DNA of 64,000 bases from Actinomycetota bacterium (GTDB taxonomy: Bacteria; Actinomycetota; Acidimicrobiia; Acidimicrobiales; JAJPHE01). Both the position numbers and the translations under genes were made by a program. The DNA lies in contig JAJPHE010000090.1 of the NCBI GenBank assembly GCA_021325435.1, positions 1 through 64,000 of the forward strand. The letters run 5' to 3'. Position 1 is the stretch's first letter. Each line of letters starts with the position of its first letter. Below are positions 40,863 through 47,583 of the stretch, in pieces. The notes under the pieces were generated by a model. The model worked only from the letters and a program-made list of their open reading frames with translations, did not search any database and was not told where the DNA came from.

Positions 40863-42293
40863 TTGCGCCCACAGAGCGTTCTCGCCCAGCCGCAACCGGT
40901 GCCGGCCGTCCTGGCGGCGATCGCCGCCCTATTCGTCCTCCTGGCCGTCTGGCGCCCGGGGCCGGCCGCCGTCACCCACCGCGCCGCCCGGTCGGGCGCC
41001 GCCGCCGAGGCCCCGGCGACGGGCCGCCCCGCACCGACCGCCCCCGCCCCCCCGACCGAGCTGCCCCGTTGGATGGTCACCCCGGCCGGGTCGGTGGAGC
41101 CCCTCGGCGGGGCCCGTCAGCTCGGTCAGCTCGTCGGCACCCGGCTGACGGCGCCGATCATCGCCCTGGTGCCCACGCCCGACGGGGGCGGCTACTGGCT
41201 GGCCGGCGCCGACGGCGGGGTGTTCGCCTTCGGCGGCGCCCGCTTCTACGGCTCGGCCGGGGGGATGGCCCTGGCCCGCCCGGTAGCCGCCATGGTCGCC
41301 ACGCCCGACGGCCACGGCTACTGGCTGGCGTCGGCGGACGGTGGCGTCTTCACCTACGGCGACGCCCGCTTCTACGGCTCGGCCGGCGATCTCGCCCTCT
41401 CGAAGCCGGTGGTGGCCATGGCGGCCACCGGGGCCGGTCGCGGCTACTGGCTGGTGTCGGCGGACGGTGGGGTGTTCACCTACGGCGACGCCCGCTTCTA
41501 CGGCTCGGCCGGCACCGTCGGCCTGGCCCGTCCCATCGTGGCCGTCACGGCCACTCCGGACGACCGTGGCTACTGGCTGGTGTCGGCGGACGGCGGGGTG
41601 TTCACCTACGGCGACGCCCGGTACTTCGGATCATCGGGGGGCCGGCCGGCAGCCACCACCGAGGCGCTGGTCCCGACCGTGGCAGGCGATGGCTACTGGC
41701 TCATGGGATCGGACGGCTCCGTGCACCCCTTCGGCGCCGCCACCCGCCGGCCGGGCCCCGCCCTTCCCGGGCGCACGTTCGCCCCCCGCGCCTCGAGAAG
41801 CGCCAGCATCACTGCCTTGCTGGCCGCGGCCCGCCAGCCGGTTCAGCCGACGGAGACAGCGACGGCGACCGCGGCGGTCGCCTCGGTCGGAGTGCCGGGA
41901 GCGGTGCCGGTGGGAGGCCACGGTCCGAAGGCGGCCGCCACCGCCCTGGCCTGGGCGATGAACCAGATCGGCAAGCCCTACGTGTGGGGCGGCACCGGCC
42001 CGGTCGGGTTCGACTGCTCGGGCCTCACCATGGACGCGTTCGCCGCCGCCGGCGTGTCCCTGCCGAGGCTGGCCGCCGACCAGTTCGGCGCCGGAGCCCA
42101 CCTGCCGGTCGACGAGGCGGCGCCCGGGGACCTCATCTTCTGGGCGTCGGATCCGAACGACCCGGCGACCATCTACCACGTCGGCGTCTACATAGGTGGG
42201 GGCTTGATGGTGCACGCCCCCCACAGCGGTGAGTCGGTCGAGGTGATACCGGTGTTCGCCGCTGACCTGTTCCCGGTGGCTACCCGCCCGTAG
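40863..42293 (+). CDS. NlpC/P60 endopeptidase with propeller repeats
   Basis: The 476-residue protein has an N-terminal membrane/signal segment (VLAAIAALFVLLAVW), five 42-residue repeats (about residues 100-300; HGYWLASADGGVFTYGDA) and a C-terminal NlpC/P60 domain. The catalytic Cys is C385 in GFDCSGLT, the His is H439 in YHVGVYIGGG, and a third polar residue follows in VHAPHSG. Such enzymes cut peptide stems of peptidoglycan outside the cell. TTG 40863 is preceded by AGGAGG at 6 nt spacing. The propeller may bind the wall or partners. Its stop sits inside a bidirectional terminator hairpin. Confidence 0.85.
   Translation: MRPQSVLAQPQPVPAVLAAIAALFVLLAVWRPGPAAVTHRAARSGAAAEAPATGRPAPTAPAPPTELPRWMVTPAGSVEPLGGARQLGQLVGTRLTAPIIALVPTPDGGGYWLAGADGGVFAFGGARFYGSAGGMALARPVAAMVATPDGHGYWLASADGGVFTYGDARFYGSAGDLALSKPVVAMAATGAGRGYWLVSADGGVFTYGDARFYGSAGTVGLARPIVAVTATPDDRGYWLVSADGGVFTYGDARYFGSSGGRPAATTEALVPTVAGDGYWLMGSDGSVHPFGAATRRPGPALPGRTFAPRASRSASITALLAAARQPVQPTETATATAAVASVGVPGAVPVGGHGPKAAATALAWAMNQIGKPYVWGGTGPVGFDCSGLTMDAFAAAGVSLPRLAADQFGAGAHLPVDEAAPGDLIFWASDPNDPATIYHVGVYIGGGLMVHAPHSGESVEVIPVFAADLFPVATRP
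41171..41755 (+). repeat. Propeller repeats in the NlpC/P60 gene
   Basis: Five units of GYWL(A/V)-x-ADGGVF(T/A)(Y/F)G-x-AR(F/Y)(Y/F)GS type, the fifth degenerate. They are close in sequence to the arrays at 28.9 and 46.7 kb. Confidence 0.75.
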
Positions 42294-43636: not shown

Positions 43637-44434
43637 ATGACGGTCCTGATCACGGCGGAATCAATCGTGCTGGTGCTGCTGGTGGTGCTGGTCGCCGGGC
43701 TGCTGCGCAGCCACGCCGACATCCTGCGGGCGCTGCACGAGCTCGGAGTCGGAGACCCCACCAGCGCCGAGGGACCAGGGGCCCCCAGCGTGGCGGTGCC
43801 CCTGTCGGCCGGGCGCCGGTCCGACGCCTCCGCCGTTCCGGCCGCCCTGGTGGGTGTCACCCCCAGCGGTGAGACCGCCAGCGTCGCCGTGGCCGGCGCG
43901 GGCACGGACGTGCTCATCGCCTTCCTGTCCAGCGGCTGCGGCACCTGCGCCGGGTTCTGGCAGGAGCTCGGCCGGGGCGCCCACTCCCAGCTGCAGGGGA
44001 CACGGGTGGTCGTGGTGACCCGCGACCCGTCGGAGGAGAGCATCTCGGCCGTGGCCCGCCTGGCTCCTGCCGACCTCACCGTGCTCATGTCCAACGACGC
44101 CTGGGAGGACTTCCGGGTTCCCGGCTCGCCGTATTTCGTCTTCGTGGACGGCGAGGCCGCCGCCGTCACAGGGGAGGGCACGGCGGCGCGTTGGGACCAG
44201 CTGGTGTCGCTCTACGCCCAGGCGAGGGCTGACTCAGCCACGACCCCGGCCGCCGCCGGCCGGGGCGCCAGCGGATCCGGTGGTTGGCGCAGATGGTTGA
44301 ACGACGCCGACCGCGAGGCGCGGGCGGATCGCGAGCTGATGGCGGCCGGCATCCATCCCGGCCATCCCAGCCTGCACCCGCCGGCCCGGGCCGGTGGCGA
44401 CGGTCCGGACGGTGCGGGTGTGACCAGCCGGTGA
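43637..44434 (+). CDS. Membrane-anchored thioredoxin-fold protein (MauD-like)
   Basis: The 265-residue protein has one N-terminal membrane helix (ITAESIVLVLLVVLVAGLL), then a thioredoxin-like domain with a CGTC redox motif (SSGCGTCAGFWQELG) and a VPGSPYFVFVDGE strand. The helix-plus-thioredoxin plan is that of MauD, the disulfide-handling factor for methylamine dehydrogenase assembly. The C-terminal ~60 residues are a charged, Gly-rich extension. ATG 43637 follows GGAGAG. It opens a run of genes ending with a MauE-like and a Cys-rich MauA-like protein, which supports the assignment. Confidence 0.75.
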   Translation: MTVLITAESIVLVLLVVLVAGLLRSHADILRALHELGVGDPTSAEGPGAPSVAVPLSAGRRSDASAVPAALVGVTPSGETASVAVAGAGTDVLIAFLSSGCGTCAGFWQELGRGAHSQLQGTRVVVVTRDPSEESISAVARLAPADLTVLMSNDAWEDFRVPGSPYFVFVDGEAAAVTGEGTAARWDQLVSLYAQARADSATTPAAAGRGASGSGGWRRWLNDADREARADRELMAAGIHPGHPSLHPPARAGGDGPDGAGVTSR

Positions 44435-44511
44435 CGGCGGTGGTGTGGGCGGGTCTGGCCACCTCCGTGGCCGCGGGCCTGCGTTCGAGCTGGTCGCCCT
44501 GAGGGGAGTCG

Positions 44512-45105
44512 ATGCTGGCGAGCATCAACCCTCTCGGGGAGAGGGCACGGAACAACCGATGGTGGCTGACCGCCTATCCGTACCTGGTGGCGTCGGCCGC
44601 CGGCGGGGCGGCCCTCGGCGGGCTCATCGGCGCCGTGGGCGCCGCCGTCATTCCGGCTTCAGCCCGGGGCGGGGGGCTGGCCGCCGCCGCTGCCGTGGCC
44701 TGCTGGGGGGCGGCGGTGGCCGACCTCACCGGTAGGCGGCTGCCGGGCCTGCGCCGGCAGGTAAACGAGGACTGGCTGGCGTCTTACCGGGGCTGGGTCT
44801 ACGGGGTGGGTTTCGGCGCCCAGCTCGGCGCGGGGTTGTTCACCATCGTCACCACCGCCACTGTGTACCTCTGCTTTGGGCTGGCGCTCTTGTCGGGCTC
44901 TCCGGGGGCGGGCGCCGGCATCGGTGTCGTGTTTGGCGTGGCCCGGGCGGTGCCGGTGCTCACCACGGCCCGGATCGACGGACCCGAAGCGCTGCGGCGC
45001 TTCCACCGCCGGATGCAGGCCGGCCTGCCGCTCGCCGCTCGGTTGGCGGCGGCCACCGCCGCCGCGGCCGGCACCGCCCTCGGAGTGGCGGCAGTGGCCC
45101 GTTGA
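44512..45105 (+). CDS. Polytopic membrane protein of the Mau-like cluster
   Basis: The 197-residue protein has about five membrane segments, with a stretch GWVYGVGFGAQLGAGLFTIV and VYLCFGLALLSG, then GVVFGVARAVPVL. This pattern is reminiscent of CcdA/DsbD-type and MauF-type membrane proteins, but it lacks an obvious redox Cys pair, so the identification is tentative. ATG 44512 follows GAGGGGAG. The TTGA overlap with the next gene implies cotranslation. Position between MauD-like and MauE-like genes suggests a role in export or maturation. Confidence 0.55.
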   Translation: MLASINPLGERARNNRWWLTAYPYLVASAAGGAALGGLIGAVGAAVIPASARGGGLAAAAAVACWGAAVADLTGRRLPGLRRQVNEDWLASYRGWVYGVGFGAQLGAGLFTIVTTATVYLCFGLALLSGSPGAGAGIGVVFGVARAVPVLTTARIDGPEALRRFHRRMQAGLPLAARLAAATAAAAGTALGVAAVAR

Positions 45106-45572
45106 CGCGCCTGGCCGCCTACGGGATCGCCGTCACACCACCGGCGGGTTGGGACGTCCGTATCTACCGGCGGCCCGCCGCCGACGGGGAGACCACCCAC
45201 ACCGTCATGCACGCCGCCAACTTCCCTCTGCCCGCCGTGCGGGCCGACTACGGCGGAGGGGCGGTGGAACGGATGGGTCCCGCCCACGCCTTCGTCGCCC
45301 TGCTCGAGTTCCACCCCGACGACGCCGGTTCGCCGCTGTTCTCCCGCCAGGGCATCCCCGAAGCGCTTGACCCCGACCGCTTCGACCCGACCACCCTGCA
45401 GCGTCAGCTGCCCGGCCAGGCGGGGGCCCAGTCGTTCTTCTCCGCCCGCCACCGCTGCTTCTGTCTTTATGTCGTCCTCGGCAGCTACACCCGTCGGGCC
45501 CAGCTGGTCGCCGAGGTCAACCGGCTGCTGCCGACCGTCACCGTCGCCGGCCCGGTCAGGGCGGTCGAGTGA
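45102..45572 (+). CDS. Unknown small protein of the Mau-like cluster
   Basis: The 156-residue product has no signal peptide or membrane helix and starts with YGIAVTPPAGWDVRIYRRP; HAANFPLPAVRADYGGGAVE follows. I do not recognise the family. Two nearby Cys (HRCFCLYVV) are the only ones. The TTG start overlaps the previous stop and its own stop overlaps the next gene (GTGA), so it is an integral part of the operon. Confidence 0.55.
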   Translation: MTRLAAYGIAVTPPAGWDVRIYRRPAADGETTHTVMHAANFPLPAVRADYGGGAVERMGPAHAFVALLEFHPDDAGSPLFSRQGIPEALDPDRFDPTTLQRQLPGQAGAQSFFSARHRCFCLYVVLGSYTRRAQLVAEVNRLLPTVTVAGPVRAVE

Positions 45573-46087
45573 TCCTCAGCGCCCCCGTGCTCGGGCTGGC
45601 CGCCCTGCTGGGGGCGGCAGGACTGGCCAAGGTGGCCCGCCCGGCCCCGACTGCCCGGGCCCTGCGCTCGGTCGGCCTGCCCGTGCCGGCCGGGCTGGTG
45701 CGGGCCGGAGCGGCGGCGGAGGTGGCGGTCGGAGGCGGCTTCGTCCTGTTCGGAGGGTGGCTGGCGGCGGGGGCGGTCGCCCTCAGCTACGCCGGTTTCG
45801 CCGTGTTCGTCGGCGCCGCCCTGGCCCGGGGTGGCACGGTGTCCTCCTGCGGTTGCTTCGGTGAGCCCGACACGCCGCCCACCCTGACCCACCTACTGGT
45901 GTGCGCGGCCGGGGCGGCCGGGGCGGCGGCGGCCGCCTCCACCCACCCCGTCGGGGCCTGGGCTCTGGTGTCCGCCCACCCCGCCCAAGCGCCGGCCCTG
46001 CTGCTCCTGGTGGCCTGCACCGCCTACTGCGGGTACCTGCTGATGGCGGTGGCGCCCCGCCTCGCCGCCCGAAGGCTGGCCCGGTGA
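45569..46087 (+). CDS. MauE/DoxX-like membrane protein
   Basis: The 172-residue protein has four membrane helices and the MauE-type motif SSCGCFGEPDTPPTLTHLL in the loop after helix 3; the N-terminus LGLAALLGAAGLAKVARP is also typical. MauE is needed, with MauD, for making the disulfide-rich light chain of methylamine dehydrogenase. The GTG overlaps the upstream stop and the downstream GTG start (46084) overlaps its stop, a tightly coupled pair with the Cys-rich protein. Confidence 0.8.
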   Translation: MILSAPVLGLAALLGAAGLAKVARPAPTARALRSVGLPVPAGLVRAGAAAEVAVGGGFVLFGGWLAAGAVALSYAGFAVFVGAALARGGTVSSCGCFGEPDTPPTLTHLLVCAAGAAGAAAAASTHPVGAWALVSAHPAQAPALLLLVACTAYCGYLLMAVAPRLAARRLAR

Positions 46088-47583
46088 GCGTCTGGCTGGT
46101 CGACCGGGCGGCGGCGGCGCTGGGAGCCCGCACCAGCCGGCGCGGCTTCCTCGCCCGCTCCTCCCTGGTAGCCACGGCGTTGGCGGTGGCGCCGGCCGAG
46201 TACGTGCTCAGGCCGGGCACCGCCTACGGGGCGATATGCGGTTGTGTCGGGCAGAGCTGCACGTGCGGGTCGGCCTGCTGCGACGGCTACACCGAGTTCT
46301 GCTGCACCCTGCACCACGGGTCGAACACCTGCCCCCCGGGCACGTTCGCCGGCGGGTGGTGGAAGGCGGACGGCTCCGCCTACTGCGCCGGCCCCCGGTA
46401 CTACGTCGACTGTCACGCCGAGTGCAGCTGCACGGACGGGTGTGGCGGCGGCTACCACTTCTGCTCGAACCAGTGTGACGGTCTCGACTGCGGCTGCGCC
46501 CTGGGGGACTGCAACCACCGGCGGGCCGGTTGCGTCACCTTCCGTTATGGCCAGTGTCACACCGACATCTCCTGCGCCGGACGCATCGCCTGCCGGGTGG
46601 TGACCTGCACGCCGGCCTATCTGCTCGACAACGCCTGCGGATCCAACTCGTTCACCGACGACTTCACTGCCAACCACAACGCCCCCTGCCTCGAAGCCCC
46701 GCCGGTGAACGTTCGTGAGTACGGCTTCGCCGCCCATCCCGCCGGCGGGTTCTGGATGTCGGGGCTCGACGGAGGGGTGTTCTCCTTCGACGGGGCGCCG
46801 TACCACGGCTCGATGGGAGGCCAGCGGCTCGACCAGCCCGTGGTGGCCATGGCCGGCACCCCTTCGGGCAACGGGTACTGGTTGGCCGCGCTCGACGGCG
46901 GCATCTTCTCCTACGGTGACGCCGGCTTCCACGGCTCTCTGGGGGGTGTCGATCTCTTCGCTCCGGTGGTCGCCATCAAGGCCACCGCCACCGGCGCCGG
47001 GTACTGGCTGGCCGCGTCCGACGGGGGGGTCTTCACCTTCGGGGACGCCGGCTTCCACGGATCGGTCGGCGGCACCCGGCTGGCGGCTCCGGTGGTCGAC
47101 CTGGCCCCCACGCCCAGCGGCGACGGCTACTGGATGGTGGCCTCCGACGGAGGGGTGTTCACGTTCGGGGACGCCGGCTTCCACGGCTCGATGGGCGGCC
47201 AAGCGCTGACGGCTGCCGTCACCCGCATCGTCGCCACTCCCACCGGTCAGGGCTACTACCTGCTCGGGCAGGACGGCGCCGTCTACACCTTCGGCGACGC
47301 CGTCTACTACGGCTCCTACGGCTCACTGCAGCCCGACCCGGCGTTGCCGGCGAACGGGATCGACGCCTTCTACGGGATGATCCTCACCATCGCCGGCAGC
47401 CAGGTGACCGGATACACCCTCTACGCCGTGTCCGGCACCCAGCCGCCGCCCCCGGTGCGCCGCTACCCGTTCGGAACGACCACCCAGCCGGCGCCCGGGC
47501 CCATACCGCCCCTGCCGACCACCACGACCACCGTTCCCCCACCCACCACGACGTCGTCCACGACCACGTCAACCACTGCCTAG
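46084..47583 (+). CDS. Tat-exported Cys-rich MauA-like domain fused to propeller repeats
   Basis: The 499-residue protein has a Tat signal (TSRRGFLARSS, RR at 19-20), a Cys-rich domain at ~50-205 with 26 Cys, and five 42-residue repeats (~210-425), then a Thr/Pro tail. The Cys-rich part resembles the methylamine dehydrogenase light chain: CCTLHHGSNTCPPGT and GGWWKADGSAYC fall where MauA has its CPPGT and the first TTQ Trp, and RYYVDCHAEC follows. The second TTQ Trp seems absent (YGQC where MauA has a Trp-Cys). In MADH the partner heavy chain is a propeller; here a different propeller is fused in cis. Genes just upstream encode MauE- and MauD-like proteins. Catalytic activity is doubtful; the cofactor is unknown. 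Confidence 0.75.
   Translation: MSVWLVDRAAAALGARTSRRGFLARSSLVATALAVAPAEYVLRPGTAYGAICGCVGQSCTCGSACCDGYTEFCCTLHHGSNTCPPGTFAGGWWKADGSAYCAGPRYYVDCHAECSCTDGCGGGYHFCSNQCDGLDCGCALGDCNHRRAGCVTFRYGQCHTDISCAGRIACRVVTCTPAYLLDNACGSNSFTDDFTANHNAPCLEAPPVNVREYGFAAHPAGGFWMSGLDGGVFSFDGAPYHGSMGGQRLDQPVVAMAGTPSGNGYWLAALDGGIFSYGDAGFHGSLGGVDLFAPVVAIKATATGAGYWLAASDGGVFTFGDAGFHGSVGGTRLAAPVVDLAPTPSGDGYWMVASDGGVFTFGDAGFHGSMGGQALTAAVTRIVATPTGQGYYLLGQDGAVYTFGDAVYYGSYGSLQPDPALPANGIDAFYGMILTIAGSQVTGYTLYAVSGTQPPPPVRRYPFGTTTQPAPGPIPPLPTTTTTVPPPTTTSSTTTSTTA
46715..47330 (+). repeat. Propeller repeats in the MauA-like fusion gene
   Basis: Five units such as GDGYWMVASDGGVFTFGDAG followed by FHGSMGG. They are clearly the same repeat family as in the surface protein and the NlpC/P60 hydrolase. 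Confidence 0.75.

Follow-up and report, generated by a model that had tools for sequence, protein, structure and literature searches.

Relatives of MauD, MauE and MauF are genetically linked to a Tat-type cysteine-rich protein with a variable C-terminus in Actinobacteria

MauD, MauE and MauF are assembly proteins of a methylamine-oxidising enzyme, and to our knowledge they are known essentially as helpers of that one enzyme family. What would such genes be doing beside an unusual cysteine-rich protein in a member of the Acidimicrobiales? The question is raised by the window analyzed here, which comprises the first 64,000 nucleotides of contig JAJPHE010000090.1. An earlier note had read five consecutive plus-strand genes in this window as a Mau-like maturation cluster serving a MauA-like protein fused to a propeller. 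All five open reading frames are confirmed in position, and we designate each by its start coordinate. The 43637 and 44512 genes are separated by 77 bases, and the overlaps described among the last four genes can be read directly in the sequence as TTGA (45102), GTGA (45569) and GTGA (46084).

Profile comparisons indicate that each of the three light-chain maturation proteins has a relative in the cluster. The MauD-like membrane thioredoxin (43637..44434, 265 aa) contains an N-terminal membrane anchor, as judged by eye, a CGTC motif of the CxxC type and a conserved C-terminal AGIxPGxPxL tail. It matches Thioredoxin_2 weakly, and its family aligns with MauD at a probability of 98.5 in hhalign profile-to-profile comparison. 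The MauE-like protein (45569..46087, GTG start, 172 aa) is the only one of the five products with a clear Pfam match (PF07291, E = 1.2e-12, 48.7 bits, cut-off 27); the other four give weak matches or none. Its family conserves an SCGCFG (CxC) motif and aligns with MauE at a probability of 97.5. Both of these identities had been proposed in the earlier note, and both are recovered. The polytopic membrane protein (44512..45105, 197 aa) had been left unnamed and is now recognized as MauF-like by profile, with a probability of 98.1 over 168 columns, compared with 0.2 for the reversed-sequence control. It is shorter than Paracoccus MauF, and the match spans the shared membrane region. The MauF-like family has no invariant cysteine, and DsbD_2 gives weak matches to 13 of 35 members. 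These alignments contain 39-49 sequences each, taken from the window and related loci, and the reference MauF, MauE, MauD, MauA and MauB sets were drawn from annotated plasmids. The hhalign E-values apply to single comparisons, and the reversed-sequence controls for MauD, MauE and MauF all remain at or below 3%.

The third gene (45102..45572, TTG start) encodes a 156-aa protein in which neither a signal peptide nor a membrane segment is apparent by eye. It has no Pfam match, and profile comparison of its family with MauA, MauB, MauD, MauE and MauF found nothing. The structure model predicts an α/β fold with a pLDDT of 95.8. The best Foldseek matches to this model are weak (E-values of 0.01 and above, TM scores of 0.24-0.38) and include EagT6, PA94, PsbP and LpqN, which we take to be members of the Mog1/PsbP/DcrB-like group. 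EagT6 is a chaperone. Because the model weakly resembles a group that includes this chaperone and the product lacks a signal peptide, our guess is that the 45102 protein may be a cytosolic chaperone.

The last gene (46084..47583, GTG start, 499 aa) encodes a predicted Tat signal region (46084..46218), a constant Cys-rich domain (46219..46698) and a variable C-terminal part (46699..47583). The claim of Tat-type export signals fares well: TIGR01409 identifies a twin-arginine signal just below its cut-off, and the RR pair is retained in 97-99% of homologues. The window protein contains 26 cysteines, 16 of which occupy columns conserved in at least 90% of homologues, and the constant domain has 25 invariant columns, 10 of which are cysteine. 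The conserved pattern (GxNxCP..G..GWW..C..RY..DC ... CxC ... FRYGQC ... CR...C ... T..H...C) features N-x-C-P, G-W-W, R-Y-x-x-D-C and F-R-Y-G elements. The Tat signal and the many invariant cysteines are MauA-like traits, and disulfides are predicted. The invariant WW, RY..DC and FRYG motifs could possibly play a redox or catalytic role. The domain is modeled with a pLDDT of 88 and pTM of 0.84. Single-sequence and profile searches of the PDB returned nothing of weight for either the Cys-rich or the 45102 family. We also considered and rejected selenocysteine incorporation or readthrough at an in-frame TGA present in some homologues; the codon lies where the domain truly ends.

The gene set is strongly conserved as a unit. 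All 48 related loci have a MauD-like and a MauE-like gene. A member of the 45102 family is present in 47 of them, the one exception being L109, which is truncated at a contig end, and a MauF-like gene is present in 40. In two genomes (G110 and G035), the MauF-like gene is missing from the cluster and found elsewhere in the same genome. Given these counts, the arrangement is not due to chance, and the linkage is maintained even as gene order varies over 14 different arrangements. The Cys-rich domain was found in 64 of the 296 class genomes and in 32 of the 397 phylum genomes, nearly always as one copy per genome; no plasmids carrying it were found. Within the class, the 45102 family is present in 65 genomes, 62 of which also have the Cys-rich domain (Fisher p ~1e-57, a statistic that ignores shared ancestry and is computed over many draft assemblies). 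Across the 397 phylum genomes there are 31 strong MauF-like matches, and every one comes from a genome that also encodes the Cys-rich domain. The co-occurrence with MauD and MauE homologues is therefore conserved, and the genetic linkage is stronger than the earlier note could see.

MauF-like proteins are not restricted to this setting. In about 35 phylum genomes, a weaker MauF-like match is seen in the absence of the present Cys-rich domain, and 20 loci were sampled from these genomes. MauD-like and/or MauE-like genes flank MauF in 18 of the 20, with only MauF found in L170 and L177. Most of the sampled loci, L170 included, also encode a Tat-type Cys-rich protein beside MauF, as read by translation alone. 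These neighbors are mainly of two kinds, a family of ~180 aa with GGGW..CC......DCC and a family with a CWB2-like C-terminus. Profile comparison links the two families to each other (probability 93.5), and neither shows a convincing profile match to MauA or to the present Cys-rich domain. L180 and L184 are partial reads, L188 carries a different Cys-rich protein and L177 carries none.

The same accessory genes, together with a Tat signal and a CPPGT motif, might be taken to mean that the Cys-rich domain is genuinely related to MauA, though at a great distance, and carries a protein-derived cofactor, in which case the cluster would specify an extracellular dehydrogenase for amines or other substrates, with its electron-transfer partner elsewhere. 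A Trp near the place of MauA W57 and a DC at the place of MauA D76-C fit this idea, as does weak profile similarity: the mature domain scores 22.7 against the Thermomicrobium roseum proteins, a value that none of 120 column shuffles equaled, and 19.9 against the MauA profile, a level reached by 3 of 120 shuffles. This similarity rests mainly on CPPGT and adjoining residues. With full-length sequences the comparison with MauA rises to 91-94%, but only if the Tat signal is left in, and we do not count it as evidence. Against the idea, PF02975 matches 0 of 57 Cys-rich homologues at E ≤ 1. This negative is meaningful because the same profile finds the divergent T. roseum MauA (36.2 bits; 180 bits for Paracoccus MauA, cut-off 25). 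Among the 397 phylum genomes, PF02975 gives four sub-threshold matches, none of them Cys-rich on reading, and Thermomicrobium MauA as a bridge query into Actinobacteria returns weak matches only, the best of which is not Cys-rich. Foldseek identifies no solved relative of the domain model, in a run without a MauA model as positive control. In MauA, W57 and W108 form TTQ, and both are invariant throughout the MauA set, including T. roseum. The present domain has a single conserved Trp position (the WW pair) and no second conserved Trp, so TTQ is unlikely to be present. MauG (CCP_MauG) serves TTQ formation, and PF03150 has no match in the source genome (96% complete), although controls were found; the earlier statement that no mauG is seen is thus upheld. 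The companion statement that no mauB is seen fits the surroundings of the 48 loci, where a MauB profile gives one weak match, to a generic propeller, and is less secure genome-wide, where PF06433 has no match and its controls were not detected either. The occurrence of the domain in stand-alone form and in lectin, SLH and LGFP fusions also speaks against a dehydrogenase subunit. Homology to MauA is possible, but the MauA-like assignment of the earlier note does not survive at the sequence level, and we regard a divergent MauA with a cofactor as unlikely.

The earlier note can further be read as proposing that the propeller-like repeat replaces MauB within the same chain. The C-terminal part of the window protein consists of five 42-aa GYW/DGGVF repeats and a Pro/Thr-rich tail, and the repeat does share one polypeptide with the Cys-rich domain in the window protein and in seven other sampled homologues. 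These are only 8 of 57, and the others have unrelated domains or none. The C-terminal parts of 51 scanned relatives include LGFP (15), CWB2 (5), FG-GAP-like (4), SLH (3) and ricin lectin (1) types, other relatives have unnamed repeats, and some homologues end after the constant domain. On a quick tree of that domain, with C-terminal types assigned by sequence motifs, the type changes at least 11 times. Moreover, the repeat has 65 matches in the source genome, including those in an NlpC/P60 protein at 40863, about 4 kb upstream. Because the repeat is common in the genome and the C-terminal part is swapped or absent in relatives, a built-in MauB-like partner is not supported; the swapping largely refutes it, and we consider it very improbable. 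The pattern suggests instead an interchangeable cell-envelope or ligand-binding end. A different objection is that the Cys-rich protein is no client of the MauD-, MauE- and MauF-like proteins at all, and that the genes simply share regulation as envelope or redox-stress genes. The proposed client link comes from gene content and conservation, and some genomes have the MauF-like gene away from the cluster. The tight co-occurrence, the clustering that persists despite reshuffling and the repeated pairing of MauD, MauE and MauF with other Cys-rich Tat proteins make simple co-regulation improbable as well.

The explanation that we consider probable is that the locus forms a module dedicated to the biogenesis of a surface protein rich in disulfides. 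Judging from its signal, the 46084 product would be exported by the Tat pathway. If the methylamine dehydrogenase light chain is a guide, the constant domain would then receive its disulfides from the MauD-like thioredoxin and MauE at the outer face of the membrane, with the MauF-like membrane protein assisting this step. For the 45102 protein, the lack of a signal peptide and the weak fold match make a cytosolic task most likely, either holding the precursor or delivering it. The exchangeable envelope or ligand-binding region would be the C-terminal part, represented in the window protein by the five repeats. The mature product is more likely to be a structural or binding protein of the envelope than a TTQ amine dehydrogenase. 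Of the earlier proposal of a distinct extracellular system that reuses the Mau machinery, the association of MauD and MauE, and often MauF, with a Tat-type Cys-rich protein stands across Actinobacteria; the MauA-like domain and the stand-in for MauB do not.

Several known systems resemble this module in part. The Paracoccus denitrificans mauFBEDA operon (L112) likewise encodes MauF, MauE and MauD homologues beside a Tat-type Cys-rich protein. In contrast to that operon, MauB and MauG were not found here, the Cys-rich domain lies outside PF02975 and lacks the second TTQ Trp, and the set includes the additional 45102 gene and fusions to interchangeable envelope-type domains. The mau-like locus on the Thermomicrobium roseum megaplasmid (L138) combines MauE, MauD-like and MauF-like membrane proteins with Cys-rich Tat proteins, one of which contains CPSGT..WW...RYLDCC. 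There, however, PF02975 does match the one Cys-rich protein that was compared with it, and the two known proteins each retain the two Trp positions; adjoining uncharacterized proteins look propeller-like by eye. Dsb/TlpA-type disulfide systems also combine a membrane thioredoxin with polytopic membrane partners, whereas the present machinery is tied to one co-encoded protein and its MauF-like family is devoid of invariant Cys. In Streptomyces, candidate RiPP clusters detected by decRiPPter independently place mauE and mauD homologues, and no other mau genes, next to predicted precursors that contain eight or more Cys (PMC7794033). The likeness to the present locus is one of description alone; those clusters are candidates for peptide natural products, and neither MauF nor the 45102 family is mentioned in the passages considered (PMC7794033). 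A literature search, with coverage that excluded most subscription journals, found no published description of the present gene set.

Taken with the other MauF-type loci, these results suggest a more general role for the Mau assembly machinery, in the service of disulfide-rich envelope proteins. MauD, MauE and MauF may even constitute a general, previously unrecognized pathway by which Actinobacteria assemble the disulfides of Cys-rich envelope proteins exported by Tat, a proposal that we hold tentatively, at somewhat lower confidence than the biogenesis module itself. Its separate client families would include the present domain, the ~180-aa stand-alone family, the CWB2-fused family and others, and the proteobacterial TTQ enzyme would be one specialized client. 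If this is correct, an actinobacterial gene set with clients that are probably TTQ-free would separate the disulfide role of MauD, MauE and MauF from TTQ formation and would offer clean systems in which to study it. It would also point to an undescribed class of modular actinobacterial surface proteins with swappable ends.

The MauD-like family of membrane-anchored thioredoxins (43637-44434) carries a conserved D..L..AGI.PG.P.L motif at its C-terminal end, beyond the thioredoxin domain. The 42-residue GYW/DGGVF repeats of the Tat-signal, Cys-rich protein encoded at 46084 are also borne by an NlpC/P60 endopeptidase-like protein (40863-42293). In the window protein the repeat matched no Pfam family; 65 matches to the repeat are found across this genome.

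On the Thermomicrobium roseum megaplasmid, a mau-like locus (L138:8721-17353) encodes MauA-like proteins, at least one of them without annotation, and repeated uncharacterised proteins sit between them. The MauE of this locus has a long N-terminal extension.

In further loci from actinobacteria without the 46084-type Cys-rich domain (L169-L188), MauF-like proteins occur together with MauD/MauE and with different Cys-rich proteins of the Tat type. Several ORFs there have matches to MauF as well as to MauE, which points to possible fusions.
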